NCBI GenBank assembly: GCA_032622095.1 | Contig: CP136063.1 | Location: 70,037,980-70,101,979, forward strand | DNA from: Siphonodentalium dalli | Lineage: Eukaryota; Mollusca; Scaphopoda; Gadilida; Siphonodentaliidae | Reading direction: 5' to 3' | DNA: 64,000 bases | Shown here: positions 5,389-64,000 of the stretch, in pieces | Layout: the number at the start of each line of letters is the position of its first letter | How positions within the stretch are numbered: position 1 is the stretch's first letter | Notes under the pieces: generated by a model | Seen by the model: only the letters and a program-made list of their open reading frames with translations | The model's database searches: none | What the model was told of the DNA's origin: nothing | Made by a program: the position numbers and the translations under genes

Positions 5389-5477
5389 CTGTCGGAATAA
5401 ATGGAAAGGTAATACATGTATATAGCATTTATATACTACACTATCGCGACCCGCACTGCAATGTAACAGATTCATCC

Positions 5478-11152: not shown

Positions 11153-11259
11153 CTTGGCTTGGGATTGTGATGCTGCATCGTCTTTAGCTTTTTGCTTTTC
11201 AGTCGTTTCATCTCCTTTTCTCGTTCAAAGTCTTCCCTCGAATCTTTATCCTTCCTTTC
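11122..11259 (-). CDS. Candidate internal exon: charged juxtamembrane segment
   Basis: On the minus strand, an AG at 11261-11260 opens a frame of 46 codons beginning ERKDKDSREDFEREKEMKRL and continuing KSKKLKTMQ. It runs to a GTATGT donor-like site at 11121 inside the minisatellite. The composition (alternating K/R and E/D) is what often follows a transmembrane helix. Entry and exit phases are both 0, which fits the terminal exon at 5388. A stronger acceptor (CATTTACAG) sits at 11291, but reading from it in the phase supplied by the membrane exon gives a stop after four codons. Either an exon is missing between them or that route makes a short-tailed isoform. The final codons (NILYTT) are repeat-derived. 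Confidence 0.35.
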
Positions 11260-29735: not shown

Positions 29736-29767
29736 TTAAATATAAAGAGGCTGGGTTAATTCGTTAA

Positions 29768-30055
29768 AGGTACTCAATCCGATCAGACGCTCCTAAATTA
29801 CTATTTCTTTTGCTTCGGGGGTTATTATTACCACTTGATTTTAGAGTTATCCATCTTCATCAACAAGACCGCCCGTTTGACCACGTGTTTCTGGGCCACT
29901 GCAGATCTCGAGAAACAACAAACTTCAAAAATCGATATCTGATCACTCTGTGCTTTGATGGGTGGGTTCCTCGACTCGAATCAAATACTTTTTACCCCCG
30001 ACGCCAAAGAAATAGTAATTTAGGACTAAATTAGGAGCATCTGATCGGATTGAGT
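29768..30055. mobile_element. TTAA-flanked MITE (AGGTACTCAAYCC family), copy 1
   Basis: TTAA (29764-29767) then AGGTACTCAATCCGATCAGA. The right end TCTGATCGGATTGAGT abuts TTAA (30056-30059), having lost the last few bases of the terminal repeat. It shares most of its interior (GATTTTAGAGTTATCCATC, GGTTCCTCGACTCGAATCAA) with the copy at 45603-46072. Confidence 0.75.
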
Positions 30056-30705: not shown

Positions 30706-31537
30706 CGAATGGTCTTCACAAAACTACTCCTTTGCATACATTGGGAAAATCAACGTTTCTTATTTACGAAATAAAATAAAAACTCAGACGTAGTGTATGC
30801 AAAGTTCCCAAGCTATGTCAAAAGTGTTAGATATATATATGTAATCGTGTCGTTGGGTTAGTTACATGTATATTTAATAAATGTAAAACAATAGGCAGCG
30901 CATAAAATATGGGCCGAAGTCTGGTTCCAGATGTTTCCCTTGTATATTGTTCCATAATAATATCGTCATCAGAGAGATCGTCGTGAATCACGTGACCCAG
31001 ATATTATAGGAGGAACTGACGTTTATGTATATACATATATGTGTATTGTGCTTATGATATATGTTTGATTTCGAATCAAATATTATTTGCACTAACCTTT
31101 AACAAAGGTTGTGAATGAATACTCAGGATGTTATGTCACGCTGAATGTTGACTCTTGGGTTGGTTTGAGTTATTTGCAGGGAGACGCAATACCAGCATCA
31201 TAGAAGATACTGTCGTCATAGTAAACAGTATATTTATTTAAAGATGATCGGACTGATTTGATGCCAAATAAGTCAAAATTTCCCACGCCAATTTTCGGCT
31301 TACCAGGTCAAAGAAAATGAAAAATACTTCCAAACATCATCGTTTTTTCATGATGCCCACATCAGAAAGAGCAATGGGTGAATGCCACAGTGTCCTGAGC
31401 TCTCAAACAAGGTACCCTGTCTTGCTCACAGGAAGCTTGTATTCTGCTAATGATGAACAGACAGTCTGCTGTCAGAGGAGTTTTAGTCAGTCCGAAATTA
31501 AAATATTATAAATAAAACCTCTCAGGCCATGTTACTA
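30706..31537. other. Intergenic or intronic DNA
   Basis: No supported gene. A 64-codon plus-strand frame at 31317-31511 has mixed composition but no known motif. Confidence 0.35.
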
Positions 31538-31768
31538 CAGTAATGCTCAAAGTAATTGACCACTTAACCACAGCAGAATTATGGGTAATTTTTCAGGATT
31601 TAGTCGGAAATATGGCTTGTTGCCATTCATCGGAAAGCTCTAACAGGACAGGGAATATACAGCGAGAGCTTTCCGATGAATGGCAACAAGCCATATTTCC
31701 GACTAAATCCTGAAAAATTACCCATAATTCTGCTGTGGTTAAGTGGTCAATTACTTTGAGCATTACTG
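31538..31768. mobile_element. TA-flanked palindromic MITE, longest copy
   Basis: Ends CAGTAATGCTC and GAGCATTACTG are exact complements flanked by TA (31536-31537 and 31769-31770). The arms continue inward (ACCACTTAACCACAGCAGAA, TTATGGGTAATTTTTCAGG, TTGCCATTCATCGGAAAGC). They leave a loop of about 30 bp with AACAGGACAGGGAATATAC, which the copy at 4255 lacks. Confidence 0.85.
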
Positions 31769-31895
31769 TATAACAATTTCAAACAATCACTGGGTAAAGA
31801 ATGCATGGATGCTCTTTATCAGACATCATCATTTGATTGTTTGTTCGCCTTATTAAAATTATAAACGTGTTAAAACTCCCCCTTTTGAAAGTTAA

Positions 31896-38310: not shown

Positions 38311-40635
38311 ATGCCGCTGCGTTTAATATCCGGGTTGGTTTCTGTGACATATATCTTGCTGGCCGTCGGGGATTCTTTGAAAACTGAGGAATACTCAAAA
38401 CTTTGTCCAGACAGTTGTTCATGCAAACAAGAAGCAAGAGGGTCATCTCTCTTCTGCAAAGGAAGTCCCTCCAAAGTAATTCCTGTCAGTGTACTCTCTG
38501 TCACTTTGTTAACAACAGAAGACTGGCTTTGTCAAGAATGTTTCATCCATGTCTCGTGGACATCTGTGTTGAATTTAACCGTTTTGAGTGAATGGAAAAA
38601 CGGTGTTACTATAAATAATAACACGTTCCGTGGTTTGGAAAAATTACAGAGTTTGTCTTTTTCTGGTGCTGTCGGAGAACGTTGGGATGGGGCTGCACTC
38701 CATCATCTACAGAACCTGGAACATCTTAGTTTAGCTAACAGTCTGTTCATGATGCTGGACCACTACACCACGTTGGTGTCTTCACTTCCAAACGCTTCAC
38801 TGAAGACACTCAATGCCAGCAGAACTAACCGATATTGGGATTCGGGCGGACAGCTACTAAATTGGCAGTTTTTCGACATGTTGAATACTCATCATATAGA
38901 GGTTCTGGACGTTTCTTACACAGGAACCCTGTTGTTATCATTCGAAGACCTTTTTGAATCACTTGTGAAGTTTGACACCATTAAGGAGCTTTACCTCTCT
39001 GGAACTATGTTTGTCGGACTGGGTGATTCCAAGGGAATGTTCTATTGGGGTATGGTGGGCCGAGCATTTCCAAATATCATTAAAATTGTTTACAAAAATT
39101 TGCGACTTCCACCAGGAACCAAACTCATAGTCACACCCGACGAGTGCTGTCACGAGAACCCACCCGAAATGTGCAGTGACGAATCGTACAAAAACACTCC
39201 TTCAGCATTCCAAAATGTCATTGAATTTGATATAAGTGACAGCAATGTGTTCCCTCCTAATATCTTAGAATGCCATTTTCATATCTTAACCGAAATTTCG
39301 TATCTCAGAACCTTCATCGCAAGAAACAATAGCATCATGCAAATCGATGTCGATCTAGACTTCATTCCCAGTCTGGAGAATTTAGACTTACGTGGGAACA
39401 CCATTACCCATTTGAGATCTACTATATTCAAAGGCCTACACAAAATACGAAGAATAAATTTGGCGAACAATCGATTGGGAAGAGATGAAAGCGATTCGTT
39501 ACAGTATTTGTTTATTCACTCGAAGAACTTGGAACATATTGACCTGTCTGCAAACAGCATAAGACGTCTGTCGAGCGGCATGTTTACAAACAACTACAAG
39601 CTGAAGTCACTTATTCTGTCCTATAATAACCTGGAAATATTCTCACTTAAGTTGACCAACATGCAAGAGTTATCTTTCGTGGACTTGAGTGGAAACAGAA
39701 TCATGGTAATCAGTGACATCACCATGGCAGACGTCACTTATATGATGAATGCGATGAGTCACCCGCTTATAGATCTCCATGACAACGACCTTGTGTGTTC
39801 TTGTGAATCAAAACAATTTGTGTCTCGACTTCAAAGACTTCATTCGGCATTCATAGACTGGGAAACAATGTCATGCTTATTTCAAGGCATCGAAGTCTAC
39901 CTCACCGATGTGAAACCAGAAGATCTTCAAATTCTTTGTTTGGACTTTCTGTGGAAGATAATTCTTCCATGTGTTTTAACCATCGGTTTAGTGGTTTTAT
40001 TGGCATATTCGTGTTACCGGAAGCGACTATACTTCATTAGGGTATATATACGCTTCCGGTTTTGGCTTATTAATAGGAAGAGAAAGGTACACTTAGATGC
40101 TGTTGATCGCATTTTCGTGGCATACTGCCATCACGATAAGGACTTCGTTGTGAGTACTATGTTTCCGAAAGTAAATCCAATACTAATGAGATTACTTGGA
40201 ACAGAAACTGATGTCCTATATGTAGGCGACAAACACTTTGCGGTCGGTAGTGATATTACCACGGAAATAGTAACTGCAATACTAACATGCAGATGCACTG
40301 TCGTCGTTGTCACTGAAAACTTCATTGATAGTCCGTGGATAACACTGGAGACAGGATTTACTTGGATTCACAACAAGCCAATAATTCCGATATATTTGGA
40401 AAAAATTGAGAAAAAACGTTTGCCTGGCGTGCTGCGGTATTACTATGACAAGAAAATTAGGTTACTGTATCCAAACGATGGGAGTCCAGAAAATGAAGAA
40501 CTGTTCTGGCAGTCTTTTTTGGCAAGCTTGTCGAATGTGTTTGGGAAACAAATAGAACGACCAGATACAGTGAACGAACCAGCGCCTAGCATATCTGACT
40601 ATGACTATGTCGAACAAAGGGAGATATGTGTGTGA
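38311..40635 (+). CDS. Toll-like receptor (LRR-TM-TIR), complete, single exon
   Basis: A 774-codon uninterrupted frame encodes a type I innate-immune receptor. A signal peptide (about residues 1-22) is followed by an N-terminal cysteine cap (C32, C36, C38, C49). About ten leucine-rich repeats run to about residue 480, with the clearest LxxLxLxxNxL at residues 300-480. A C-terminal cap follows (C496, C498, C522, C543), then a transmembrane helix (about 546-569), a basic stop-transfer segment and a TIR domain (about 599-745). TIR box 1 is RIFVAYCHHDKDF and box 3 is the FW pair at 732-733. Box 2 reads GDKHFAVGSDI (639-649), without the usual RD..PG. One cysteine cap makes it the vertebrate-like (sccTLR) layout. 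ATG has A at -3, and a TTTCAG acceptor-like site lies about 22 bp upstream, so a 5'-UTR intron is possible. Ligand unknown. Antisense and shifted frames here are shadows. Confidence 0.95.
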   Translation: MPLRLISGLVSVTYILLAVGDSLKTEEYSKLCPDSCSCKQEARGSSLFCKGSPSKVIPVSVLSVTLLTTEDWLCQECFIHVSWTSVLNLTVLSEWKNGVTINNNTFRGLEKLQSLSFSGAVGERWDGAALHHLQNLEHLSLANSLFMMLDHYTTLVSSLPNASLKTLNASRTNRYWDSGGQLLNWQFFDMLNTHHIEVLDVSYTGTLLLSFEDLFESLVKFDTIKELYLSGTMFVGLGDSKGMFYWGMVGRAFPNIIKIVYKNLRLPPGTKLIVTPDECCHENPPEMCSDESYKNTPSAFQNVIEFDISDSNVFPPNILECHFHILTEISYLRTFIARNNSIMQIDVDLDFIPSLENLDLRGNTITHLRSTIFKGLHKIRRINLANNRLGRDESDSLQYLFIHSKNLEHIDLSANSIRRLSSGMFTNNYKLKSLILSYNNLEIFSLKLTNMQELSFVDLSGNRIMVISDITMADVTYMMNAMSHPLIDLHDNDLVCSCESKQFVSRLQRLHSAFIDWETMSCLFQGIEVYLTDVKPEDLQILCLDFLWKIILPCVLTIGLVVLLAYSCYRKRLYFIRVYIRFRFWLINRKRKVHLDAVDRIFVAYCHHDKDFVVSTMFPKVNPILMRLLGTETDVLYVGDKHFAVGSDITTEIVTAILTCRCTVVVVTENFIDSPWITLETGFTWIHNKPIIPIYLEKIEKKRLPGVLRYYYDKKIRLLYPNDGSPENEELFWQSFLASLSNVFGKQIERPDTVNEPAPSISDYDYVEQREICV

Positions 40636-43440
40636 TTCGTTCTGTTATGTGAAAGACACCTACAGAACCCTACTGTTGAAACTATCATGTTACTACCTGT
40701 ATTGCTAAGACTATTCTAATTAGCCAGTTTCAACAACAGTTACATGTTACGTGCGATGCCATTGCCAACGGAGGTCACATGGCTCATGCGATAATTTCGC
40801 CTGAAGGTACCATGATCAAACTGCTTAGAATTTTGTGTCCAATGTGCATGTATTTAATTTCAATAACCCAACCTTCTGGTCACTGAATGAGCAATACACA
40901 GCGCATGCAGAGATTTGCCTGCATGAAAATAATTAAATTTGTTTGAAGCCATTTATGCGTATCATTGGTCGCACTATGGCAGCTTGTTCTCGCCATCGAC
41001 CATTACTTTCAGTTCCTGATGTAATTATCATTTACACTACACTGTGTGGCATGCTGGAACTATACCAAAATTATATAAATGTATTTTATTCAAAATTTGT
41101 TCAGTTGTATATCAAGCAGAGTCAATTCCCGAGGAATAGTTTCCAGCGAGTTTCCGGTTGTACATGTATTTTATACATATATACCATGGGCTGATAATTC
41201 AAAGCTGTCATTGCTGTGCTATAAGTTCGGTCGATGTTAGAAGTTTATGTGTTCATAAACACATTTAGCAAATGTTCTGGCCTCGGGAGTTGCGCATTTT
41301 CGAGGTCAGAGCAAGCGTTTATTTGAAAAACAAAATACCCCGTTGACGCACGCGGTTCGTTTCATCATGCTATTCCGTGATATTTATAAACCGAATTTCA
41401 TCAGTAATATCAATCGTCGACAAATAACTATCTATTATAAATAGATTCTTCCCTAAACAATCAGCACTTTACCAGGAAGTTATACCAATAATAAACCAGA
41501 TAATTTCAGATCACGGAACAAAATAAAGTCACATAAAACAAAATTCATTCATATTTATATAAACTCAAAACTCAAGGGGAGTCACTCTATTGTTCATATC
41601 GCAAATACGAGAAACAAAATATTGGACAATAATTTTATAAATATAACTCGATATTTCCTTCAGACATTATAACGTCTTGTGAGTCTATTCGTTGAACCAA
41701 CGTCGTGTGGTATCAATTATATGTTTTATCTCGCTCCGCTCGAACGAACATACAATATTTACTCAGTAACATATCTACAAATGAGATCTTATATGTTTAT
41801 CTAGAAAAACTCAGGCCATCCTGGGCTGGTCCCTATCATAGTACACATGAATACATATGGAAACGCCAAAAGCAATGAACAGATGGCAAATGAAACAACG
41901 TTAACGTTCATTCAGATGTGAAACGAACAATTACCAGTAAGTTACATGTAAGTATATGTTATTTCCCGAGCTGTCGGGCATTCTGAACAATAATTCAACG
42001 AGGCGGAGTCCAGTTAATTATTGTTCCGAATGCCCGTCAGCGAGGGGAATATCTTTCTTAATCCACAGAAATACCAGTAATAAATCCACATACATCGCGT
42101 CCAATACCACAAAAGTTCTAGAAAAATTAAGTTCGATCATATAGTACAGGGGATGTAAAATATCGAGCCATAAACCCAAGATATATACAATCGGGAGATG
42201 TAGCGGATATGTGGTACAATTCCATGTTACAGAACTGCAACAAAGATGCAACTGAGCAAAGTTACATTAAATGCCAAATAATTTTCAACTCTCATTAATT
42301 TTGTAAAATAAAATATTGATTTTTGGTACATTTTACTATTGCCATATATATACATCTATATTTATCTGTCTTCTTATTTTTCTGCTTCTTCTGCTTCTTC
42401 TCCTTCTTCGGTCTTCTTTTATGTTTATAAATCACACTTAGCACTTTGTAAATATTGCACATCTCACCAGTAACACGTGAACTCATGTCTTAGAGATTAA
42501 AGCATAGCGGCATAGCATAGCATAGCATAGCATAGCATAGCAGGGTGAAGTTGGCTTAGATATATTTGTTTCTACTAATTTGGTACACATTAAACGGGGA
42601 ATCTTGAAATATAAACATGTATAGTGGTTTAACATGACCCACATGATAACATGATGCATCACATACTGTTTGTATTGGCAGAGGGGCTCCACAAGTTGAC
42701 AAGACGTGTGCCCCGATCCCTTCTGTATTATTATATGAAAATAAAATATGTTTCAAGTCATGCATCTCACACAGTGTTTGGTTTGATGTAAACAGTATTT
42801 ATTCCATATAATTCAATACAATATATGTTACAAAATGTGAATCATGAATATTGGTTTATGGAGGGGATCCGACATCAAGCATTAAGCTTATGGGGGTCGT
42901 TTCCGATTACGTGTGAATAGGCCCACATTGTGAGAAGGATAACATACTAATAGGTAGTTAAGTTCATACTAATTTTAGAAGATCATTGTTGGTATATATG
43001 TTACTTAGCTACTCACAGTGTGGGCTGGATCGATAGATATATCAAAATGAGATTTTTTCTTCTTATGGAATAATAGAAAGAAATTGATTGAAAATAGATT
43101 TAGTATAGCGGAACGAAGTATAGATCGGTATAGACAAGAGTGTGAGGTGACATATCAAACGTTTGTGAGTCTGATATGCAGTATAGGGAGGGGATATGGG
43201 GGAGTGTAAATGATAAGCTATTGCTTTTAATTTCTGCACTAATTTTGTGTTCTGGCCACTATCGATTGGATTTGTACGAATATATAATAGCATCAACATT
43301 AATATTTATATTTCTCACGCGATTTTTGACGATATGCGTCGATTTGATAACTATTAGATGATATGCCTGTGCGTGGTTCAAGCGGAAGTTCTTGGTTTGT
43401 GGTCAAGATTTATTTAAATCTTTTTGTACGAATAATGTAC
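40636..43440. other. 3' flank of the TLR (duplicated)
   Basis: No gene. It matches 53781-59655 apart from the 3-kb insertion in that copy. AATAAA occurs in CAATAATAAACC near 41490 and in AAAATAAAGT near 41520, possible but distant polyadenylation signals. A (GCATA)n microsatellite lies at about 42503-42540. Short palindrome-like arms around a TCTGAACAATAATTCAACG stretch occur at 41977-42040. Confidence 0.6.
42503..42540. repeat. GCATA pentanucleotide microsatellite
   Basis: Seven to eight tandem GCATA units. The paralogous site at about 58726-58757 has fewer units, a replication-slippage difference between the two copies. Confidence 0.85.
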
Positions 43441-46400
43441 TTCTGAACTTCTCGGAAAATCGTTATGTTATCTTCCTGAGACAGTTCATTAGACCATGTA
43501 GAAGTATATTGGTGGTAATGTTACATATATCAGATAATTCGTTCATAAATAACAGTCGCTGTGCATTGTATGATTGGCATTCAATTAAATAATGTTCTGT
43601 GTCCTCTACTTCACCACAGGTACACATGGGTTGGTCGGCAATGATGTTAACATATTTGTGGTAATTCAGATTCCTACAATTTAATCTGAGGCGGGCATGC
43701 AAAATTTGCGCTTCACGCGTGTTAGTGTGGTATAACCATTTAGGGGTCATCTGTCGTTTTGGTTCCAGAGAATTTGAGAAAGTTGCCAGTGAGTCCATGG
43801 CTACCTTGTTCGTATCTAGGTTGTTCCACAAAATTGTTGTTGATGGGAGAAACGATTTTTTGTAATATTCATAGTCAAAACTAGGGACCATAAGCATGCT
43901 AGACTGTCTAGTTTCACGTTGTGATATCTGTCCGTGAGTAGGGGGAACTAGGTTTCTGAGATAGACAGGTGATTGACCTTTCACCATTTTATAAAATAAT
44001 TTTAGTTTATATTTTTTCCGTCGTGATTTAAGGGTTTCCCAACTTGTTTCTCTAAGAAGAGATACATTACGGACAGACCTAGTCGCGCCTGTCACAATAC
44101 GAGCTGCCTCGTATTGTATATCTTCGATGTTGTCAGATTCTTGCTGGCTACAACCATTCCAGACAACACAAGAATATTCGAGGATTTACCTTATCATTAT
44201 AAAATAACATTTTTCGAGAGCGGCTCTGTCGAGATAGAATCGATATTTTCTCAAGAGGGAAATGCGTTTCCATGCGGTTTTCATCACTTGTTCAATATGG
44301 GGTCCCCAGTTTCCTGTTTTACTCAAAGTAACTCCAATATGTTTATGGGTATCTACTTCTTCAATAGGCTGTTGGTTCATGAACAGCGTTGGGTGAACAA
44401 GCTTCGTACGTTTCCTAGTGCATGTCAATGCTTCTGTTTTTAGAGCATTAAACTTGACAAGCCATTTAGAGGACAACGATTCTAGTCTATTGATATCATG
44501 CTGTAAAATAGTCGCTCCTATGTTTGGGTCGTCGATGACAAGTGCGAGTGAAGTGTCGTCGGCGAAAAGCCGAATGTCACATGCCTTATTTTCAACTATG
44601 TCATTGATAAAGACAAGAAATAGTACTGGCCCCAGGACCGATCATTGGGGCACTCCCGCTGTTATCTTTCCCCATGCAGATTGGCCAGAGGTTAAAACAA
44701 CACGTTGCTGGTGGTCCTATAGATACGATCTGAACCATTGCAGTAAATTATTGCGGATTCCTACAGAATGAAGTTTAAAGAGTAGGCCTTCGTGTCAAAC
44801 TTTGTCGAAAGCTTTGCTGATATCGACAAATAGTAACCGTACATCGTGTCCCTGTTCTATGATCTACTAAGATTGTCATATATGCCACATAATTGATATG
44901 AAGTTGAATCGGCCGGCACGAATCCTGACTGATGTTTGGTTAAACTGTTGTTCAACTGGAGGTGAGTCATGAAGTGTTTAGTAATACATTTTTCAAACAA
45001 CTTACTGAGGCAGCTTAGTAGTGAGATTGGGCGATAGTTTTCAGGATTACTACGATCTCCTTTCTTGTGTATGGGGACAACGTTTACTCGTTTCCACTCA
45101 GGCGGAAAATATGATTCGCGCAAAAAACGATTAAAAATCTGTGAGAGGGGCGTGCTGAGACGTAGACAGTTCTTCAGCAGGCGCGGGCTGATTATATCGG
45201 GACCAGAAGCCTTATCGTGCTGAAGTTCTTTCAATGTGTTATAGACTTCTAATTCCGAAATTTCAATGGTTTGCAATATAGTAAGATTGGGGTCATCTTC
45301 GATTATGTCTGGGGTTTTACTGGGTCTATCTATAGAGGCAATGCTACAGAAGTAATTATTAAGCACTGTGGATTTTTCGTCATCTGACGAAACAACATTG
45401 CCCTGCCAAATCAGGGGAGGTACATTATCGTTCCTATTTTGTGTGAGGCGTTTGAATGTTTTCCACCACTTTCCGTCCGCCGTATTGGGATTTTTCAAAA
45501 TTTCTTGTACTTTTAGTAGATGAATACTTTTGGCTGTTCTAACTTCGGATATTATTACGTTACGAGCTTTTCGATATTTAGTCCAAATGGTGGGGGTATT
45601 AAAGGTACTCAACCCGATAAAACTCCTCTCAATTACTATTTCAATGGCTTCGGGGGTCAAAAATATTTGATTCGAGTCGAGGAAGTCACCCATCAAAGCT
45701 CAGATTTGTTAGATATCGATTTTAGAAATCTATTATTTTTCATTATCGGGAATACTATCTGGCCCAGAACTCAGTCAACATTGCGTTAAAATTACCACTT
45801 GATTTTAGAGTTATCCATCCTTGTCTGTTTGAATAGATTTTGAGTACACATCCAGAGCAGATTACGGCAGTTATTAGTACTTATCTCGAGAATAATAACA
45901 AATTTCCAAAATCAATATCTAATAACTCTGAGCTTTGTTTGATGGGTTCCTCGACTCGAATCAAATATTTTTTACCCCCAAAGCCAAAGCAATAGTAATA
46001 TAGGACCCTCTGATCGGATTGTTGTTGTTGGAATCTGTTGAGATGGGGACCCTCTTTACGGGTTGAGTACCTTTAACTCTTTTTGCTGTTTGGTGAATTC
46101 TTTTTCGTTGTCTATATTTAGATACTTAATCCGTGGATTCATCCATTCAGGCTCGACTCGGCTAAATGGTATTGTTCTATGTGGAATATATTTACGCATA
46201 AGTTCTGTTATTTTTTCAGTTAATGTACAACAAACATTTTCAATTGCTACATTACGGAAAGTTTTGGCCCATTCCGGTGATTGTATGCTCGTTCATGCTG
46301 GTGAAGTTTGCTTGATCATAGAGGTAGACAGTGCGTTTGTTATGTTTTTCGTGTCTGAGTGGGTCACATAAAGATATTTTGACGTAGACGGGGACATGGT

Positions 46401-47395
46401 AGCGGATCAAGTTACAGAAAAATGATTCTAGTATGCCACTTTCCTTTTTAAGACAGTTGTCATTGATAAGAATGACGTCTATGAGCGTTTCTGAATATTC
46501 AGTGAAATTTGTCGAGTCTTTGATAACTTGATCAAGAGTGAACTGGGTACATATAGAGGATACTTTTGTCTTTGCGAGATTGAATTGATTTTCATTCAGA
46601 TCGCCACATATCACTATTTTATGAGTTGGATGAGCATTAGCTACATCACTAATATTTCCTTCTATGTCTTTCCAGCATTGGGTATTTGGTGGGCGATAAA
46701 ATGTACCGACTAACACGTTTGGGCCATTCATTGAGATTTCGATCCATAAATTCTCTAAAGTTATTTTCTCTAAGTCCGCTCTTCGTTTAAATGCAAAGTT
46801 ATTTTTAACATAAACTATTACACCACCTCCGACTGTGTCGGTTTTTCTATCTCTTCGTTCGGGTTCGTGGAAACCTCTTATGTATAGGTCATTTTGATCA
46901 GTTTTTTCACCTAGCCAGGACTCCGTAAAATCACACACATCGAAATTTTGTATCTCTATAGAGAGAACGTCAAGTTTTGGGATTATGCTCTGCACATTTA
47001 AGTGGAAAATAGATAACTCCGAATCAAGCCGAGTCCCAGGATTAGGTAAAATGTTGCCAGATATTATTAACAGCTGTCTGAGCCATGCTGGTATTCCAGT
47101 TATGTTCGTATATCTGGGTGTGTTTATTGGATTTCCAGTTCTATTAAATTTAGCATGGTGCATTGATATGTTAGTATAGTTCACAATCGACATGATAAGT
47201 AGTATGCGTACGGCTTTGATTTGGCTTGTGCCTTTAATTACTAGTTTTAAGAAATGGAGAAGTAATTTCGATGAATGCGAGTCAAAGCGCTCTTTACGTT
47301 TCGCATACCGCGCGCGGGAATAGAATGTGCCTACCCTCGAGCGGTAGTAGTTATCCAGGATCATGTTGTTTGGTTTGGTTTGGTTTGTGCACCGT
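43440..47395 (-). pseudogene. Decayed CR1/L2-like LINE ORF2 (copy A), interrupted by a MITE
   Basis: On the minus strand an AP endonuclease domain runs from 47364 to 46252. It has an N-terminal NPG motif, HLNVQSIIPK, ESWL, VGGGVIVYV, GTFYRPPNT, CGDLNENQFN and ETLIDVILIND, but RYH stands where the family has an SDH-type end motif. After a MITE (45603-46072) comes linker and reverse transcriptase: KWWKTFKRL, DKASGPDIISPRLLKN, VVPIHKKGDRSNPENYRPIS, then, past a frameshift near 44857, FVDISKAFDKV, a stop inside the GVPQ(G)S box, and an intact FADD at 44566-44555. The C-terminal region (44095-43463) ends with CTCGEVEDTEHYLIEC. Most stops are shared with copy B. Here a TGG of motif A's neighbourhood is also TGA. 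Inactive. It lies antisense to the TLR. Confidence 0.9.
45603..46072. mobile_element. TTAA-flanked MITE (AGGTACTCAAYCC family), copy 2, with known empty site
   Basis: The element is 470 bp, with ends AGGTACTCAACCCG and CGGGTTGAGTACCT that are exact complements. TTAA stands on both sides (45599-45602 and 46073-46076). The paralogous LINE at 61805-61808 has a single TTAA with the two flanks joined, which proves both borders and the 4-bp duplication. It shares its interior with 29768-30055. It inserted after, or in only one lineage of, the segmental duplication. Confidence 0.93.
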
Positions 47396-48338
47396 ATAAC
47401 ACATGAGTATATATATGGATGGCCGGTCTACTAACGTATTATACTTCCCGTTCCATGGGACGTTACTCCATAAATTATGATACTGCTTCCCAAACAGAAC
47501 GAGGTATATTATATGATTACACTGGTGTAAATGTTTTCCATAGGCCTCAGTGCTAACGTTTTAGCGTTTACTGTTGGCTATATAAATATTGCTTTTTTTA
47601 ATCTGAAAAATTGACATTTGGGGAAACTTTTTACACAAAAAAATCATATCTGTCTAGCAGGAAATTCGCCTTTAAATCTTGTGATTTCGTAACTAGTGTC
47701 AGAACCGCTTAAAAAAATACTGTCATATTTTCGACCACACCAAAAAATTCAAATTTCACTACAAAAGGTTAATTCCTGTGCCAATGGCTATTTTACCTAT
47801 GAGAAACCATAGGGAAGAGGTGTGATGAGTTTTTTATGCAAAAAAGCACACAAGGCTATTGACCAATCAGGGCCCAGTGTCTATTTTATTCTCTCCTATA
47901 CATTTGAAAAAATGTGTTCAAAAACAATATCACTTCTGTGGTTCTTTATTTATCACACACAATTTAACACCACCCCTTTAATACATTATGCATCAAAAAA
48001 GCACAATTTTCCACCACAAGTCATGTTCAGGCCCCATTTTAACACAGTTTTTGGGGTCTGGTATTGCAAACTTGGACCAGATATGGAAGACTGTACCAGA
48101 TTCTTTCCATGGCAGAGATTCTGGTGATGTGAGGTCATTGAGTCCAGATCTGATCAACTGAGCATCAAGCACATGCCTTTATCAGCACATGGAAGACTAA
48201 AATATGACATTTTCAGGTATGTAAGGTTGATCCAAGATAACTGGATGTGGGTGCATATTGAATTAGTTGAACAAAGATATGCCCTCTTTGAAATGCTGAA
48301 GCATTTTCTTAAATATGTCCAAGTTTTAGTGCTATTAA
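47396..48338. other. Duplicated region upstream of the LINE, with a partial TIR element
   Basis: ATTACACTGGTGTAAATG followed by CATAGGCCTCAGTGCTAACG at 47517-47560 is the left end of the element that is complete at 63247-63688. In this copy about 125 bp including its right end are missing near 47910. A 101-codon frame at 47822-48127 has no known motif and its equivalent in copy 2 is disrupted. Confidence 0.55.
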
Positions 48339-52302: not shown

Positions 52303-52313
52303 ACCCACCCGAA

Positions 52314-53780
52314 ATGTGCAGTGACGAATCGTACAAAAACACTCCTTCAGCATTCCAAAATGTCATTGAATTTGATATAAGTGACAGCAATGTGTTCCCT
52401 CCTAATATCTTAGAATGCCATTTTCATATCTTAACCGAAATTTCGTATCTCAGAACCTTCATCGCAAGAAACAATAGCATCATGCAAATCGATGTCGATC
52501 TAGACTTCATTCCCAGTCTGGAGAATTTAGACTTACGTGGGAACACCATTACCCATTTGAGATCTACTATATTCAAAGGCCTACCCAAAATACGAAGAAT
52601 AAATTTGGCGAACAATCGACTGGGAAGAGATGAAAGCGATTCGTTACAGTATTTGTTTATTCACTCGAAGAACTTGGAACATATTGACCTGTCTGCAAAC
52701 AGCATAAGACGTCTGTCGAGCGGCATGTTTACAAACAACTACAAGCTGAAGTCACTTATTCTGTCCTATAATAACCTGGAAATATTCTCACTTAAGTTGA
52801 CCAACATGCAAGAGTTATCTTTCGTGGACTTGAGTGGAAACAGAATCATGGTAATCAGTGACATCACCATGGCAGACGTCACTTATATGATGAATGCGAT
52901 GAGTCACCCGCTTATAGATCTCCATGACAACGACCTTGTGTGTTCTTGTGAATCAAAACAATTTGTGTCTCGACTTCAAAGACTTCATTCGGCATTCATA
53001 GACTGGGAAACAATGTCATGCTTATTTCAAGGCATCGAAGTCTACCTCACCGATGTGAAACCAGAAGATCTTCAAATTCTTTGTTTGGACTTTCTGTGGA
53101 AGATAATTCTTCCATGTGTTTTAACCATCGGTTTAGTGGTTTTATTGGCATATTCGTGTTACCGCAAGCGACTATACTTCATTAGGGTATATATACGCTT
53201 CCGGTTTTGGCTTATTAATAGGAAGAGAAAGGTACACTTAGATGCTGTTGATCGCATTTTCGTGGCATACTGCCATCACGATAAGGACTTCGTTGTGAGT
53301 ACTATGTTTCCGAAAGTAAATCCAATACTAATGAGATTACTTGGAACAGAAACTGATGTCCTATATGTAGGCGACAAACACTTTGCGGTCGGTAGTGATA
53401 TTACCACGGAAATAGTAACTGCAATACTAACATGCAGATGCACTGTCGTCGTTGTCACTGAAAACTTCATTGATAGTCCGTGGATAACACTGGAGACAGG
53501 ATTTACTTGGATTCACAACAAGCCAATAATTCCGATATATTTGGAAAAAATTGAGAAAAAACGTTTGCCTGGCGTGCTGCGGTATTACTATGACAAGAAA
53601 ATTAGGTTACTGTATCCAAACGATGGGAGTCCAGAAAATGAAGAACTGTTCTGGCAGTCTTTTTTGGCAAGCTTGTCGAATGTGTTTGGGAAACAAATAG
53701 AACGACCAGATACAGTGAACGAACCAGCGCCTAGCATATCTGACTATGACTATGTCGAACAAAGGGAGATATGTGGGTGA
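52314..53780 (+). CDS. 5'-truncated TLR paralogue (LRR part, TM, TIR), no signal peptide
   Basis: The frame matches residues 287-774 of the complete TLR and stays fully open. It keeps about the last six LRRs, the C-terminal cysteine cap, transmembrane helix and TIR domain (with the same proline-less GDKHFAVGSDI loop and FW box). I see two amino-acid changes (H to P in the LRR segment near 52583, and the final V to G) and two silent changes. The in-frame open sequence continues upstream without a start to 52191, through 37 foreign codons with a hydrophobic stretch (LAWIYYVVSHLIG). ATG at 52314 is simply the first methionine in the retained part. Without a signal peptide it is most likely a pseudogene in the making. 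Alternatively, it could supply a TM-TIR fragment if a new promoter or upstream exon exists. Confidence 0.75.
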   Translation: MCSDESYKNTPSAFQNVIEFDISDSNVFPPNILECHFHILTEISYLRTFIARNNSIMQIDVDLDFIPSLENLDLRGNTITHLRSTIFKGLPKIRRINLANNRLGRDESDSLQYLFIHSKNLEHIDLSANSIRRLSSGMFTNNYKLKSLILSYNNLEIFSLKLTNMQELSFVDLSGNRIMVISDITMADVTYMMNAMSHPLIDLHDNDLVCSCESKQFVSRLQRLHSAFIDWETMSCLFQGIEVYLTDVKPEDLQILCLDFLWKIILPCVLTIGLVVLLAYSCYRKRLYFIRVYIRFRFWLINRKRKVHLDAVDRIFVAYCHHDKDFVVSTMFPKVNPILMRLLGTETDVLYVGDKHFAVGSDITTEIVTAILTCRCTVVVVTENFIDSPWITLETGFTWIHNKPIIPIYLEKIEKKRLPGVLRYYYDKKIRLLYPNDGSPENEELFWQSFLASLSNVFGKQIERPDTVNEPAPSISDYDYVEQREICG

Positions 53781-54920
53781 TTCGTTCTGTTATGTGAAAG
53801 ACACCTACAGAACCCTACAGTTGAAACTATCATGTTACTACCTGTATTGCTAAGACTATTCTAATTAGCCAGTTTCAACAACAGTTACATGTTACGTGCG
53901 ATGCCATTGCCAACGGAGGTCACATGGCTCATGCGATAATTTCGTCTGAAGGTACCATGATCAAACTGCTTAGAATTTTGTGTCCAATGTGCATGTATTT
54001 AATTTCAATAACCCAACATTCTGGTCACTGAATGAGCAATACACAGCGCATGCAGAGATTTGCCTGCATGAAAATAATTAAATTTGTTTGAAGCCATTTA
54101 TGCGTATCATTGGTCGCACTATGGCAGCTTGTTCTCGCCATCGACCATTACTTTCAGTTCCTGATGTAATTACCATTTACACTACACTGTGTGGCATGCT
54201 GGAACTATACCAAAATTATATAAATGTATTTTATTCAAAATTTGTTCAGTTGTATATCAAGCAGAGTCAATTCCCGAGGAATAGTTTCCAGCGAGTTTCC
54301 GGTTGTACATGTATTTTATACATATATACCATGGGCTGATAATTCAAAGCTGTCATTGCTGTGCTATAAGTTCGGTCGATGTTAGAAGTTTATGTGTTCA
54401 TAAACACATTTAGCAAATGTTCTGGCCTCGGGAGTTGCGCATTTTCGAGGTCAGAGCAAGCGTTTATTTGAAAAACAAAATACCCCGCTGACGCACGCGG
54501 TTCGTTTCATCATGCTATTCCGTGATATTTATAAACCGAATTTCATCAGTAATATCAATCGTCGACAAATAACTATCTATTATAAATAGATTCTTCCCTA
54601 AACAATCAGCACTTTACCAGGAAGTTATACCAATAATAAACCAGATAATTTCAGATCACGGAACAAAATAAAGTCACATAAAACAAAATTCATTCATATT
54701 TATATAAACTCAAAACTCAAGGGGAGTCACTCTATTGTTCATATCGCAAATACGAGAAACAAAATATTGGACAATAATTTTATAAATATAACTCGATATT
54801 TCCTTCAGACATTATAACGTCTTGTGAGTCTATTCGTTGAACCAACGTCGTGTGGTATCAATTATATGTTTTATCTCGCTCCGCTCGAACGAACATACAA
54901 TATTTACTAAGTAACATATC
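53781..54920. other. 3' flank of the truncated TLR (duplicated)
   Basis: It matches 40636-41775 with scattered substitutions. No gene. It ends at the ATATC target site of the 3-kb element. Confidence 0.6.
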
Positions 54921-57900
54921 CACTGTCGGATACCCGTTTAGGTTCGGACATTCCAAGATGGTGGCGCCCACTAAAGCAGATAAACGGTAAGTGTATATAT
55001 TGTCTCCAAACAGCAATCAACGACATCTTTCGGTGATACACCTTGAAACAGTTATGTAGAAATTTGTATGCCCAACACATACGTAACACGCCTTTCGCAT
55101 GACAGGCATGTGAATTGTTGTATTTGGCGTGTCAAGTCGTCATAATTTTTCGAAATTTTATCGAGGCGGCGAAATGTTCGCTCTTTCGTATTTTTCTGGC
55201 CCTGGGCTCATGCATCCGCAAATTTATGTATTGTTGTGGGTAGATTAGGTCACCACACATCTTCGGAATGCAAAACCGGCGATATTTTTATTGTCTAACT
55301 CCGAAAAACGACCTTTGAAAATTTCAAAATGTTCAGGTTCGGATTCGCAACATTCGCGATTATTTTGTTCAGGTTCAGACACAATTTTTGTTCAGGTTCG
55401 GACAAATTTGGTTCAGGTTCGGACGCATCAAAAACTTCGCATAAAAATGACACGCCGGGGTACAGTCGCGTTCTTATTGCGTTTTTGTGCATTTGGTTAT
55501 CTTCCATTCGTAAAAGAAACGATAAATGGGGAACACGAGGGCATGGTTTTAGCCCACTCGTGAATAATTTGGGCGGACTTTCTTATTTTATGCGTGTGAG
55601 ATGTATGCAATCACGTGATTCCCCTCCACATCCACATACGATGCCACGAAGGTCGCCGCACGTAGATGAGCAGATAACTGTCCATAATATAAGTTACACG
55701 GCTTTTTGATGGGGGTACTGTGTGTATATGCCCCGGTAGATGCTCGTATCCCCCGAGGCGATCCCCCCTCAACAAGCCGTGTAATGGTGTATTTACCCCC
55801 AGTCTCTATTAACAATATATTCCCAGACATAAAGCGCAGAAACGAGCCACGAACAGTAACTCTATTTTATTAGACTGCTTATACGATGAATGTGATTATA
55901 TAGCTGTTCCCACAATTTGCCCATAAATACTTGCTGATAGATAGACAATATATACCATGTTTTGTATCAATAGTTGGATGATATATTTGGGTATTCACAC
56001 GAAACATATTCTTTTCAATATAAGCCTTATGTGTTTTGCCTCATTTCTAAATATTGAATCCAGTTACAAGTTAACCATTTGTCACAGGACTATTACGCAG
56101 GACTATTAATTAGAGCCCGAACATGTTGCGTTCGATTCAGCACTATGCGAACATAGAGAATACCTATGGTTTGCCGAATAATACCTGCAATATGCGAATC
56201 TTCACGAGCGGCGATATTTCAGGAATATATTATTCGAGAAACCATATGTGTTCTCTTTATGTTATGCTTATGGTAAGCAATTCTGCAAAACTACAAGTAT
56301 TTGTTTATCGAAACAAGAATTTAGACGCCGAAGTAGCGAAACTTATGCAAACAATATCAGCTGTTCCGTTGGCAAATTAAGCATCTCTAATTTTGGTGGA
56401 AAATTTCCTTCATGCGCTTAAGAGAATAGTGCCTACCCAATGGTTAAATATTACACACAGAAACCCAATTAACAAATAACTGAATACGTAATAAAACGGG
56501 ATCATTTGTTTTTCTTTAGAACTTATCGCAGTAATAAACTATTTTCAGTCTTCCGCGGAATTTCGCGTAGTTCCATTGATAATATATTACACGCGTCAAT
56601 AATTGTGTACCCGTTTTTAAACAGAAGTATCTACAGTAAGATAACGTTTGAAAATTATTATCCATGCCAAGGTCCTGACGAAAGAGAGCGCATCGTTTGT
56701 CATTTAAAATTACAGCTATTTCATAGGGAAACATATATAACAAACAACGCTTGTCCCCACACCCGGTTGTAACTAACAATCTGATTAATAACAACGTCAC
56801 GTTTAAATCATGCACCATGTCCCCGTAACTCTTGGCAGTGGGCGTATAAAAGCAAGTGAAACATCGTGGTTATGAATTACCCTTGAACTAGCAGTTTCAC
56901 CAATCGTAACATTGTTCTAGCGCACTGAGCTTAATTGACGTCACCTAAAACAGGATCGATAGGTCTGCTACTGAATTAATCTTATTGCATGGTGCTGATT
57001 GGTGTGATAAGCTATGAAAAGCACACCACATGGTAGCTATTGATGTGGGACAAAATCGTTAACTCCGCCAACATCGTGGGATACTACGAGATTTAATACC
57101 CGAATGTCTCTTTTTGAAACCCCTTGGCTCCGCCTCGGGGTTCAAAATCGAGAACCAGGTATTAAATATCCATGTATCCCCGATATTTCAGAAGATAAGT
57201 AATAATACCACTGTTGCTCATATGTAAAATGTAATAATTCCCACTAGCTGGTTTATAGTAGACATTGCTCGAGAATATTCAACTGTGGCTTTTATCCAAT
57301 TAATTCTGATTAATTCGGAGAATTTACCACCTATATTTGGAAATTTCAGCTGACATATTATATATAACAAATTAACAATGCATGTTCGGTAATAACACAC
57401 ACAATAAGATCGCGACTGCACCTCGGCATGTCTTTTATAGGTAAGGTTTTGATGCGTCCGAACCTGAACTAAAATTGTCCGAACCTGAACCAAATTTGTC
57501 CGAACCTGAACAAAAATTGTGTCTGAACCTGAACAAAATCATCGCGAATGTTGCGAATCCGAACCTGAACATTTTGAAATTTTCAAAGGTCGTTTTTCGG
57601 AGTTAGACAATAAAAATATCGCCGGTTTTGCATTCCGAAGATGTGTGGTGACCTAATTTACCCACAACAATACATAAATTTGCGGATGCATGAGCCCAGG
57701 GCCAGAAAAATACGAAAAAGCGAACATTTCGCCGCCTCGATAAAATTTCGAAAAATTATGACGACTTGACACGCCAAGTACAACAATTCACATGCCTGTC
57801 ATGCGAAAGGCGTGTTACGTATGTATTGGGCATACAAATTCCTACATAACTGTTGCAATGTGTATCACCGAAAGATGTCGTTGATTGCTGCTTGGAGAAA

Positions 57901-57980
57901 ATATATACACTTACCGTTTATCTGCTTTAGTGGGCGCCGCCATCTTGGAATGTCCGAACCTAAACGGGTATCCGACAGTG
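54921..57980. mobile_element. 3,060-bp DNA element with ~560-bp terminal inverted repeats and 5-bp target duplication
   Basis: Inserted in copy 2 only. The empty site in copy 1 (41771-41775) has a single ATATC, whereas here ATATC stands at 54916-54920 and 57981-57985. The termini read CACTGTCGGATACCCG inward on both strands. The inverted repeats extend to about 55480 and 57400 with few mismatches. Their inner part carries four reiterated subterminal motifs of the GTTCAGGTTCGGACA type (55332-55425; complement at 57450-57575). The interior of about 1.9 kb has only short frames (longest about 90-100 codons), none recognisable as a transposase, so it is probably non-autonomous. A 5-bp duplication with CAC-initial ends is known for Transib/ProtoRAG-type elements. 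CMC-type elements also start CACT but make shorter duplications. Placement is open. Confidence 0.85.
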
Positions 57981-59655
57981 ATATCTACAAATGAGATCTT
58001 ATATGTTTATCTAGAAAAAAAAGACTCAGGCCATCCTGGGCTGGCCCCTATCATAGTACACATGAATACATATGGAAACGCCAAAAGCAATGAACAGATG
58101 GCAAATGAAACAACGTTAACGTTCATTTAGATGTTAAACGAACAATTACCAGTAAGTTACATGTAAGTATATGTTATTTCCCGAGCTGTCGGGCATTCTG
58201 AACAATAATTCAACGAGGCGGAGTCGAGTTAATTATTGTTCCGAATGCCCGTCAGCGAGGGGAAAATCTTTCTTAATCCACAGAAATACCAGTAATAAAT
58301 CCACATACATCGCGTCCAATACCACAAAAGTTCTAGAAAAATTAAGTTCGATCATATAGTACAGGGGATGTAAAATATTGAGCCATAAACCCAAGATATA
58401 TACAATCGGGAGATGTAGCGGATATGTGGTACAATTCCATGTTACAGAACTGCAACAAAGATGCAACTGAGCAAAGTTACATTAAATGCCAAATAATTTT
58501 CAACTCTCATTAATTTTGTAAAATAAAATATTGATTTTTGGTACATTTTACTATTGCCATATATATACATCTATATTTATCTGTCTTCTTATTTTTCTGC
58601 TTCTTCTGCTTCTTCTCCTTCTTCGGTCTTCTTTTATGTTTATGTTTATAAATCACACTTAGCACTTTGTAAATATTGCACATCTCACCAGTAACACGTG
58701 AACTCATGTCTTAGAGATTAAAGCATAGCGGCATAGCATAGCATAGCATAGCATAGCAGGGTGAAGTTGGCTTAGATATATTTGTTTCTACTAATTTGGT
58801 ACACATTAAACGGGGAATCTTGAAATATAAACATGTATAGTGGTTTAACATGACCCACATGATAACATGATGCATCACATACTGTTTGTATTGGCAGAGG
58901 GGCTCCACAAGTTGACAAGACGTGTGCCCCGATCCCTTCTGTATTATTATATGAAAATAAAATATATTTCAAGTCATGCATCTCACACAGTGTTTGGTTT
59001 GATGTAAACAGTATTTATTCCATATAATTCAATACAATATATGTTACAAAATGTGAATCATGAATATGGGTTTATGGAGGGGATCCGACATCAAGCATTA
59101 AGCTTATGGGGGTCGTTTCCGATTACGTGTGAATAGGCCCACATTGTGAGAAGGATAACATACTAATAGGTAGTTAAGTTCATACTAATTTTAGAAGATC
59201 AATGTTGGTATATATGTTATTTAGCTACTCACAGTGTGGGCTGGATCGATAGATATATCAAAATGAGATTTTTTCTTCTTATGGAATAATAGAAAGAAAT
59301 TGAGTGAAAATAGATTTAGTATAGCGGAACGAAGTATAGATCGGTATAGACAAGAGTGTGAGGTGACATATCAAACGTTTGTGAGTCTGATATGCAGTAT
59401 AGGGAGGGGATATGGGGAGTGTAAATGATAAGCTATTGCTTTTAATTTCTGCACTAATTTTGTGTTCTGGCCACTATCGATTGGATTTGTACGAATATAT
59501 AATAGCATCAACATTAATATTTATATTTCTCACGCGATTTTTGACGATATGCATCGATTTGATAACTGTTAGATGATATGCCTGTTCGTGGTTCAAGCGG
59601 AAGTCCTTGGTTTGTGGTCAAGATTTATTTAAATCTTTTTGTACGAATAATGTAC
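57981..59655. other. Duplicated non-coding DNA between the 3-kb element and LINE copy B
   Basis: It matches 41776-43440. Differences include a 4-bp A-run insertion near 58016, a 6-bp repeat near 58640 and fewer GCATA units at about 58726-58757. No gene. Confidence 0.6.
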
Positions 59656-62600
59656 TTCTGAACTTCTCGGAAAATCGTTATGTTATCTTCCTGAGACAGT
59701 TCATTAGACCATGTAGAAGTATATTGGTGGTAATGTTACATATATCAGATACTTCGTTCATAAATGACAGTCGCTGTGCATTGTATGATTGGCATTCAAT
59801 TAAATAATGTTCTGTGTCCTCTACTTCACCACAGGTACACTTGGGTTGGTCGGCAATGATGTTAAAATATTTGTGGTAATTCAGATTGCTACAATTTAAT
59901 CTGAGGCGGGCATGCAAAATTTGCGCTTCACGCGTGTTAGCGTGGTATAACCATTTAGGGGTCATCTGTCGTTTTGGTTCCAGAGAATTTGAGAAAGTTG
60001 CCAGTGAGTCCATGGCTACCTTGTTCGTATCTAGGTTGTTCCACAAAAATTTTGTTGATGGGAGAAACGATTTTTTGTAATATTCATAGTCAAAACTAGG
60101 GACCATAAGCATGCTAGACTGTCTATTTTCACGTTGTGATATCTGTCCGTGAGTAGGGGGAACTAGGTTTCTGAGATAGACAGGTGGTTGACCTTTCACC
60201 ATTTTATAAAATAATTTTAGTTTATATTTTTTCCGTCGTGATTTAAGGGTTTCCCAACTTGTTTCTCTAAGAAGAGATACATTACTGACAGACCTAGTCG
60301 CGCCTGTCACAATACGAGCTGCCTCGTATTGTATATCTTCGATGTTGTCAGATTCTTGCTGGCTACAACCATCCCAGATAACACAAGAATATTCGAGGAT
60401 TTACCTTATCATTGTAAAATAACATTTTTCGAGAGCGGCTCTGTCGAGATAGAATCGATATTTTCTCAAGAGGGAAATGCGGTTTTCATCACTTGTTCAA
60501 TATGGGGTCCCCAGTTTCCTGTTTTACTCAAAGTAACTCCAATATGTTTATGGGTATCTACTTCTTCAATAGGCTGTTGGTTCATGAACAGCGTTGGGCG
60601 AACAAGCTTCGTACGTTTCCGAGTGCATGTCAATGCTTCTGTTTTTAGAGCATTAAACTTGACAAGCCATTTAGAGGACCACGATTCTAGTCTATTGATA
60701 TCATGCTGTAAAATAGTCGCTCCTATGTTTGGGTCGTCGATGACAAGTGCGAGTGAAGTGTCGTCGGCGAAAAGCCGAATGGCACATGCCTTATTTTCAA
60801 CTATGTCATTGATAAAGACAAGAAATAGTACTGGCCCCAGGACCGATCATTGGGGCACTCCCGCTGTTATATTTCCCCATGCAGATTGGCCAGAGGTTAA
60901 AACAACACGTTGCTGGTGGTCCTATAGATACGATCTGAACCATTGCAGTAAATTATTGCGGATTCCTACAGAATGAAGTTTAAAGAGTAGGCCTTCGTGC
61001 CAAACTTTGTCGAAAGCTTTGCTGATATCGAAAAATAGTAACCGTACATCGTGTCCCTGTTCTATGATCTACTAAGATTGTCATATATGCCACATAATTG
61101 ATATGAAGTTGAATCGGCCGGCACGAATCCTGACTGATGTTTGGTTAAAATGTTGTTCATCTGGAGGTGAGTCATGAAGTGTTTAGTAATACATTTTTCA
61201 AACAACTTACTGAGGCAGCTTAGTAGTGAGATTGGGCGATAGTTTTCAGGATTACTACGATCTCCTTTCTTGTGTATGGGGACAACGTTTACTCGTTTCC
61301 ACTCAGGCGGAAAATATGATTCGCGCAAAAAACGATTAAAAATCTGTGAGAGGGGCGTGCTGAGACGTAGGCAGTTCTTCAGCAGGCGCGGGCTGATTAT
61401 ATCGGGACCAGAAGCCTTATCGTGCTGAAGTTCTTTCAATGTGTTATAGACTTCTAATTCCGAAATTTCAATGGTTTGCAATATAGTAAGATTGGGGTCA
61501 TCTTCGATTATGTCTGGGGTTTTACTGGGTCTATCTATAGAGGCAATGCTACAGAAGTAATTATTAAGCACTGTGGATTTTTCGTCATCTGACGAAACAA
61601 CATTGCCCTGCCAAATCAGGGGAGGTACATTATCGTTCCTATTTTGTGTGAGGCGTTTGAATGTTTTCCACCACTTGCCGTCCGCCGTATTGGGAATTTT
61701 TCAAAATTTCTTGTACTTTTAGTAGATGAATACTTTTGGCTGTTCTAACTTCGGATATTATTACGTTACGAGCTTTTCGATATTTAGTCCAAATGGTGGG
61801 GGTATTAACTCTTTTTGCTGTTTGGTGAATTCTTTTTCGTTGTCTATATTTAGATACTTAATCCGTGGATTCATCCATTCAGGCTCGACTCGGCTAAATG
61901 GTATTGTTCTATGTGGAATATATTTACGCATAAGTTCTGTTATTTTTTCAGTTAATGTACAACAAACATTTTCAATTGCTACATTACGGAAAGTTTTGGC
62001 CCATTCCGGTGATTGTATGCTCGTTCATGCTGGTGAAGTTTGCTTGATCATAGAGGTAGACAGTGCGTTTGTTATGTTTTTCGTGTCTGAGTGGGTCACA
62101 TAAAGATATTTTGACGTAGACGGGGACATGGTAGCGGATCAAGTTACAGAAAAAGGATTCTAGTGTGCCACTTTCCTTTTTAAGACAGTTGTCATTGATA
62201 AGAATGACGTCTATGAGCGTTTCTGAATATTCAGTGAAATTTGTCGAGTCTTTGATAACTTGATCAAGAGTGAACTGGGTACATATAGAGGATACTTTTG
62301 TCTTTGCGAGATTGAATTGATTTTCATTCAGATCGCCACATATCACTATTTTATGAGTTGGATGAGCATTAGCTACATCACTAATATTTCCTTCTATGTC
62401 TTTCCAGCATTTGGTATTTGGTGGGCGATAAAATGTACCGACTAACACGTTTGGGCCATTCATTGAGATTTCGATCCATATATTCTCTAAAGTTATTTTC
62501 TCTAAGTCCGCTCTTCGTTTAAATGCAAAGTTATTTTTAACATAAACTATTACACCACCTCCGACTGTGTCGGTTTTTCTATCTCTTCGTTCGGGTTCGT

Positions 62601-63126
62601 GGAAACCTCTTATGAATAGGTCATTTTGATCAGTTTTTTCACCTAGCCAGGACTCCGTAAAATCACACACATCGAAATTTTGTATCTATATAGAGAGAAC
62701 GTCAAGTTTTGGGATTATGCTCTGCACATTTAAGTGGAAAATTGATAACTCCGAATCAAGCCGAGGCCCAGGATTAGGTAAAATGTTGCCAGATATTATT
62801 AACAGCTGTCTGAACCATGCTGGTATTCCAGTTATGTTCCTATATCTGGGTGTGTTTATTGGATTTCCAGTTCTATTAAATTTAGCATGGTGCATTGATA
62901 TGTTAGTATAGTTCACAATCGACATGATAAGTAGTATGATACGGCTTTGATTTGGCTTGTGCCTTTAATTACTAGTTTTAAGAAATGGAGAAGTAATTTC
63001 GATGAATGCGAGTCAAAGCGCTCTTTACGTTTCGCATACCGCGCGCGGGAATAGAATGTGCCTACCCTCGAGCGGTAGTAGTTATCCAGGATCATGTTGT
63101 TTGGTTTGGTTTGGTTTGTGCACCGT
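59655..63126 (-). pseudogene. Decayed CR1/L2-like LINE ORF2 (copy B)
   Basis: Paralogue of the LINE at 43440-47395 without the MITE. Minus-strand pieces are an N-terminal region at 63095-62913, then (shifted) the NPGP motif and HLNVQSIIPK at 62925-62686. The endonuclease follows at 62670-61984, then linker and reverse transcriptase at about 61800-61062, motif A and FADD (60771-60760) across shared stops, and the C-terminal part at 60310-59678. Breaks found only here are a one-base deletion near 62937, a stop at 62686-62688 and a one-base insertion near 61696. The W next to motif A is intact here. Breaks common to both copies (the GVPQ-box stop, the frameshift near 61062, the stop before ILEYSCVVW) predate the duplication. 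The endonuclease end motif also reads RYH. Confidence 0.9.
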
Positions 63127-63246
63127 ATAACACATGAGTATATATATGGATGGCCGGTCTACTAACGTATTATACTTCCCGTTCCATGGGACGTTACTCC
63201 ATAAATTATGATACTGCTTCCCAAACAGAACGAGGTATATTATATG

Positions 63247-63688
63247 ATTACACTGGTGTAAATGTTTTCCATAGGTCTCAGTGCTAACGTTTTAGCGTTT
63301 ACTGTTGGCTATATAAATATTGCTTTTTTTAATCTGAAAAAATTGACATTTGGGGAAACTTTTTACACAAAAAAATCATATCTGTCTAGCAGGAAATTCG
63401 CCTTTAAATCTTGTGATTTCGTAACTAGTGTCAGATCCGCTTAAAAAAATACTGTCATATTTTAGACCACACCAAAAAATTCAAACTTCACTACAAAAGG
63501 TTAATTCCTGTGCCAATGGCTATTTTACCTATGAGAAACCATAGGGAAGAGGTGTGATGAGTTTTTTATGCAAAAAAGCACACAATGCTATTGACCAATC
63601 AGGGCCCAGTGTCTATTTTATTCTCTCCTATACATTCCTCCCGCACCCGCTAGATGTCACTCCGAACCCTATTTACACCAGTGTAACC
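63247..63688. mobile_element. Short TIR element (ACACTGGTGTAAAT family), complete copy
   Basis: The left end TTACACTGGTGTAAATG and right end ATTTACACCAGTGTAA are complementary. The subterminal CATAGGTCTCAGTGCTAACG relates it to 1516-1976. In copy 1 the matching locus (47517 onward) lacks the right end, best explained by a deletion there. Confidence 0.65.
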
Positions 63689-64000
63689 TAAAGCAATAGC
63701 CCGCTTTTCGCGAAATAATTGTAACTCCCTACATTTCTTCAGAAGTACCAATCAATGGAAAAAATGTGTTCAAAAACAATATCACTTCTGTGGTTCTTTA
63801 TTTATCACACACAATTTAACACCACCCCTTTAATACATTATGCATCAAAAAAGCACAATTTTCCACCACAAGTCATGTTCAGGCCCCATTTTAACACAGT
63901 TTTTGGGGTCTGGTATTGCAAACTTGGACCAGATATGGAAGACTGTACCAGATTCTTTCCATGACAGAGATTCTGGTGATGTGAGGTCATTGAGTCCAGA
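63689..64000. other. Duplicated downstream sequence, cut by the window end
   Basis: It matches 47912-48160. No gene. The duplication continues past the window edge. Confidence 0.6.

Follow-up and report, generated by a model that had tools for sequence, protein, structure and literature searches.

We identified in a 64,000-nucleotide stretch of the Siphonodentalium dalli genome (contig CP136063.1; hereafter the window) a 3,060-bp insertion (54921-57980) that is very probably a DNA transposon of a known kind, a cut-and-paste (DDE-type) element that is non-autonomous and was moved in trans. Candidates for the superfamily that supplied the enzyme are hAT5, Transib or another member of the CACTA-Mirage-Chapaev-Transib lineages (CMC), and other groups. 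The element begins exactly with CACTGTC, ends exactly with GACAGTG and is flanked on either side by ATATC, a target duplication of 5 bp (54916-54920 and 57981-57985). A paralogous site in the same window carries ATATC once (41771-41775) and lacks the insertion. The bases at the two borders are unequal (C at 54920 against G at 57980, and C at 54921 against A at 57981), so the borders cannot be shifted and the duplication is exactly 5 bp long. The ends, the target duplication and the empty site are as first described in an earlier note on this DNA, whose reading of the insertion as a DNA transposon that duplicated 5 bp of its target is supported. The duplication length is that of a single insertion, the window holding one copy of the element, and all statements on family membership made below are based on this one copy.

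The window contains two near-identical host segments (approximately 39158-48148 and 52303-64000, the end of the window); the element resides in the second of them and is absent from the first. Each segment contains a Toll-like receptor-type frame, which combines leucine-rich repeats with a TIR signalling domain and measures 793 amino acids in the first segment and 529 in the second, where its upstream part is missing. The first segment also carries frames with Pfam matches to reverse transcriptase and endonuclease, and the retroelement frames of the second are near-identical to these. Further upstream, where the near-identity ends, only patches of the two segments can be matched (approximately 83-94% identity), and this favours true paralogues over alleles that were assembled next to each other. 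The first segment alone contains a 470-bp insertion (45603-46072) with ends AGGTACTCAACCCG...CGGGTTGAGTACCT and flanking TTAA, for which a single TTAA at 61805-61808 is the empty site; we take it to resemble a TTAA-targeting (Kolobok- or piggyBac-type) non-autonomous element, and pieces related to it lie within 29764-30026. Approximately 120 bp with no visible inverted ends (63637-63757) are present in the second segment only. Elsewhere in the window, self-complementary elements of one family (4243-4459 and 31530-31775) carry TACAGTAATGCYC at or near their ends, with a further related stretch at 3857-3962; we presume that they are perhaps Tc1/mariner-type MITEs. Stepped self-matches also revealed a tandem array with a period of about 50 bp (10327-11157).

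The element is bounded by long terminal inverted repeats that align without gaps over 504 bp (54921-55424 on the forward strand and 57477-57980 on the reverse strand) with 11 mismatches (2.2%, or 98% identity), 7 of which are transitions. Beyond this part, the right end has one additional 21-bp repeat unit, followed in both arms by weaker similarity (approximately 85%) that extends for some 60 bp, as far as 55482 on the left and 57399 on the right. Repeats of about 560 bp, the length originally given, are thus recovered when all similarity is counted (to approximately 562 bp), although only 504 bp of it are gap-free.

The divergence of the repeats carries a hint about the history of the element. 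Repeats that were identical at insertion should differ from each other no more than the flanks differ from the empty copy, the insertion being younger than the duplication of the locus. The left flank aligns to the empty copy without gaps and differs from it at 10 of 2,618 aligned bases (0.4%); for the right flank the count is 40 of 3,807 (1.1%), with 6 gap events. Divergence between the inverted repeats (11 of 504) exceeds that of the left flank (Fisher's test, p 0.0001) and of both flanks together (p 0.004), as well as, marginally, that of the right flank alone (p 0.044) and that of its first kilobase (p 0.021). Decay of CpG sites does not explain the excess, because just 1 of the 11 differences falls at a CpG and the left repeat is not depleted in this dinucleotide (observed/expected 1.37). 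These comparisons hint that the element copy may already have been diverged when it moved, part of the divergence predating the insertion. The argument is a hint rather than a proof, because the flanks differ from one another (p 0.002) and coding sequence forms part of the left one; in addition, the flanks could look younger than they are as a result of gene conversion between the duplicated host segments. The order of events that we infer is duplication of the locus followed by insertion into one of the copies. The empty site could in principle have been produced instead by precise excision from the other copy, an outcome known for Muta1 from the part of its description available to us (PMC5225508).

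Both ends of the element contain a reiterated motif, GTTCAGGTTCGGAC, with five copies in the left end and six in the right, each of the 11 having at most one mismatch. The copies start at offsets 16, 411, 447, 470 and 491 in both ends and at 512 in the right end only. The layout therefore comprises one copy at base 16 from each terminus (54936-54949 on the forward strand, where it reads GTTTAGGTTCGGAC, and 57952-57965 on the reverse strand) and a cluster from 411 bp inward. The left cluster (55331-55424, forward strand) has four motifs at 55331, 55367, 55390 and 55411, with start-to-start steps of 36, 23 and 21 bp; the right cluster (57456-57570, reverse strand) has five, at 57456, 57477, 57498, 57521 and 57557, and is longer by one 21-bp unit. 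The count of four motifs per end in the earlier note has to be corrected accordingly; it overlooked the copy at base 16 of each end and, on the right, the fifth unit of the cluster. Five of the seven steps within clusters measure 21-23 bp, or about two helical turns, a spacing at which the sites concerned would face the same side of the double helix, and the other two measure 36 bp. The motif is specific to the element at up to 2 mismatches, with no copy in the rest of the window against the 11 inside. Allowing up to 3 mismatches raises the count to 12 (the twelfth, at 48532, lies outside the element), whereas 100 shuffles gave 2.72 on average. In addition, both ends have AAGATGGYGGC at offset 35, as AAGATGGTGGC on the left (54955-54965, forward strand) and AAGATGGCGGC on the right; we take it to resemble a YY1 site.

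Scans of other genomes for these patterns covered viruses and prokaryotes and for this reason are of limited value for an element from an animal. No viral or prokaryote genome contig matched a 29-base end pattern that was partly degenerate, nor did any viral contig match a 21-base pattern. One viral-contig locus with two neighbouring motifs and tandem GTCCGAACCTGAACC units was rejected as a coincidence, because its matches to the element outside the units were only 11-15 bp long (E 0.097 or worse). By eye, the units seemed to encode a repeated peptide and to lie among phage genes.

The interior of the element (1,916 bp; 55483-57398) has neither a transposase match nor an unusually long open frame. 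The longest frame in the whole element (136 amino acids) was reached in 24 of 200 dinucleotide shuffles, and the longest in the interior (117 amino acids) in 17 of 200. When the whole element was translated in six frames, with X at stops, and searched against Pfam at E values up to 1, five frames matched no family and the sixth gave one insignificant match to LRR_12 (E 0.19). The six frames of this non-coding copy gave no Pfam match to a hAT-type transposase or a RAG1-like core. Two of the longer frames of the element had no Pfam match when scanned alone, nor did the element match any Rfam family at E values up to 1. As a rough control for the Pfam searches, we scanned one by one intact frames elsewhere in the window, as opposed to stop-ridden translations. 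The control recovered reverse transcriptase above the Pfam cut-off in 6421-7095 (E 3e-10) and, below the cut-off, reverse transcriptase in 44857-45699 (E 9e-6) and endonuclease in 46252-47427 (E 3e-5 and 2e-4). Nothing was found in 5259-5744 or in 43463-44185; the latter adjoins the reverse transcriptase frame at 44857-45699 and seems to be part of one retroelement with it. Because the control was made of intact frames only, a decayed transposase in the element could be missed. Three imperfect hairpins were also observed in the interior, the longest at 57078-57180 (37-nt arms, 73% complementary) and shorter ones at 55694-55784 (22-nt arms, 91%) and 56155-56256 (29-nt arms, 86%).

With no recognisable gene of its own, the element must have been moved by a transposase from elsewhere. 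The earlier note held that its combination of traits matches no standard family. This is too strong, because hAT5 and Transib allow 5-bp duplications, and Galileo and Muta1 have long repeats with reiterated units. By the probabilities that we assign, hAT5 ranks first, followed by Transib/CMC and then by the groups with long inverted repeats. The ends of hAT elements keep an A at position 2 and a G at position 5, and CACTG fits this rule. A non-autonomous member of the hAT superfamily, mobilised by a hAT transposase of the 5-bp type, is a tentative placement, which we regard as possible rather than probable. The available excerpt of a recent classification applies the name hAT5 to hAT families whose duplications measure 5 bp (PMC12730594), the length found in our one insertion. 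As excerpted, a mollusc survey places hAT second to TcMar by number of elements (PMC10294476), and the piRNA clusters of a pond snail are enriched in elements that include hAT5 (PMC6128900). Reiterated subterminal motifs such as those of our element are also described, in the excerpts available, for several hAT elements. By contrast, hAT elements in general are described, in the portion of the source at hand, with inverted repeats of 10-25 bp and a usual duplication of 8 bp (PMC3942097), against approximately 500 bp and 5 bp here, though short repeats are a usual rather than a strictly defining trait of the superfamily. The lack of a hAT transposase remnant in the six-frame scan also counts against this placement. 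Among the matches listed in our literature search, the excerpts contained no hAT5 terminal sequences, and the likeness is one of description rather than of end sequence.

The other placements are less probable. The V(D)J heptamer is CACAGTG, and the earlier note had seen a partial resemblance to it in the ends of the element. The resemblance is real at five of the seven bases, including CAC, but a CAC start is common to other superfamilies and is weak evidence of kinship with RAG or ProtoRAG. We consider it unlikely that the element is a non-autonomous Transib, RAG-like (ProtoRAG-type) or other CMC element, even though it combines a 5-bp duplication with a CAC..GTG end and has CACTGTC at both termini. 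The available text on the CACTA-Mirage-Chapaev-Transib lineages gives CA..TG ends "in most cases" and duplications of 2-5 bp (PMC12730594), and 5-bp duplications are attributed, again in excerpts, to Transib and RAG-like elements. The portions of other sources at hand report non-autonomous RAG-like elements in a pearl oyster (PMC7204232) and a fungal CACTA element, CNIRT6, with ends that also begin with CACTG (PMC12810828). By analogy, the two-part end formed by the terminus and the base-16 motif may recall the bipartite ends of RAG-like elements. The sequence beyond CACT argues against such a link. The consensus of protostome RAG-like terminal repeats is given in the part available as CACTWMCAAACKTYKBB, with AAA conserved at positions 8-10 (PMC7204232). 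Compared to this consensus, which is not Transib's own, the element end agrees at 9 of 17 positions and, after CACT, at 5 of 13, a score equalled by 75% of 20,000 random sequences; the AAA at positions 8-10 is absent. Nor did either end contain an A-rich nonamer with at least 6 of 9 matches to the nonamer consensus, at spacers of 10-25. Furthermore, the available part of the mollusc survey counts only one Transib element (PMC10294476), and the six-frame Pfam scan gave no coding remnant in our element. The likeness to Transib and ProtoRAG elements proposed in the earlier note consequently holds for the 5-bp duplication and the CAC start, as well as for the CACT of the protostome consensus, whereas a reading as RAG or ProtoRAG from these traits was rejected, as the match beyond CACT is at chance and leaves the link unsupported.

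Groups with long inverted repeats resemble the element in architecture and differ from it in target duplication, and we rate membership in either the Mutator-like elements (Muta1 type) or the P/Galileo group as the least probable of the readings considered. As excerpted, Muta1-like elements have inverted repeats longer than 100 bp along with 12-bp tandem repeats in subterminal position, and their derivatives vary in the interior (PMC5225508); Galileo, of the P superfamily, has long inverted repeats with internal tandem units unequal in number between its two ends (PMC3573991). However, typical Mutator-like elements are described in the excerpts with duplications of 8-10 bp, Muta1 with 8-9 bp and Galileo with 7 bp, against the exactly 5 bp that we found at an insertion with an empty site; the units of Galileo, which we compared by description, are also about 210 bp long. 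According to the available part of PMC10045372, the wider IS256/MuDR group has a broader range of duplications (4-10 bp), which makes membership improbable rather than impossible, and Ginger2 makes duplications of 4-5 bp. A further and quite improbable reading joins all the traits in an undescribed group of animal transposons defined by 5-bp duplications, CACTGTC ends, repeats of about 500 bp and two-site recognition, that is, of the base-16 motif and of a phased array past base 410; its transposase would lie outside the described superfamilies or be a divergent relative of RAG1. Among the matches listed in literature searches on Transib, hAT5 and long inverted repeats, the excerpts contained no description of the element, and none of the matches listed in the transposon literature had CACTGTC. 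Full-text searches with the end and motif strings returned, judged by title, one article on a retrotransposon (PMC6445120, apple) and others on unrelated subjects.

Returning to the reading of the element as a non-autonomous transposon moved in trans, its architecture suggests how mobilization might proceed. The transposase, supplied from another part of the genome, would take the terminal CACTGTCGGATACCC together with the motif at base 16 as its recognition site and may also bind the putative GTTCAGGTTCGGAC sites located 411-525 bp inside each end. After bringing the two ends together, the enzyme would cut the element out and insert it at a target cleaved with a stagger of 5 bp, the filling-in of which would leave ATATC on both sides. 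There are precedents for such internal sites: the available parts of the respective studies describe the binding of the Herves transposase to a repeated subterminal motif (PMC3143072) and, for Galileo, both secondary binding sites and a pair of inverted repeats with unequal tandem units (PMC3573991).

The borders of the element are exact, the locus that it entered is duplicated and has a Toll-like receptor-type gene, and the candidate transposase-binding sites of the element are unusually regular. With such borders and sites, its family should be easily recognised from the sequence of the host genome. If the partner enzyme were RAG1-like, for which nothing argues beyond the shared CAC start and the 5-bp duplication, the ends of the element would bear on the evolution of recombination signals.
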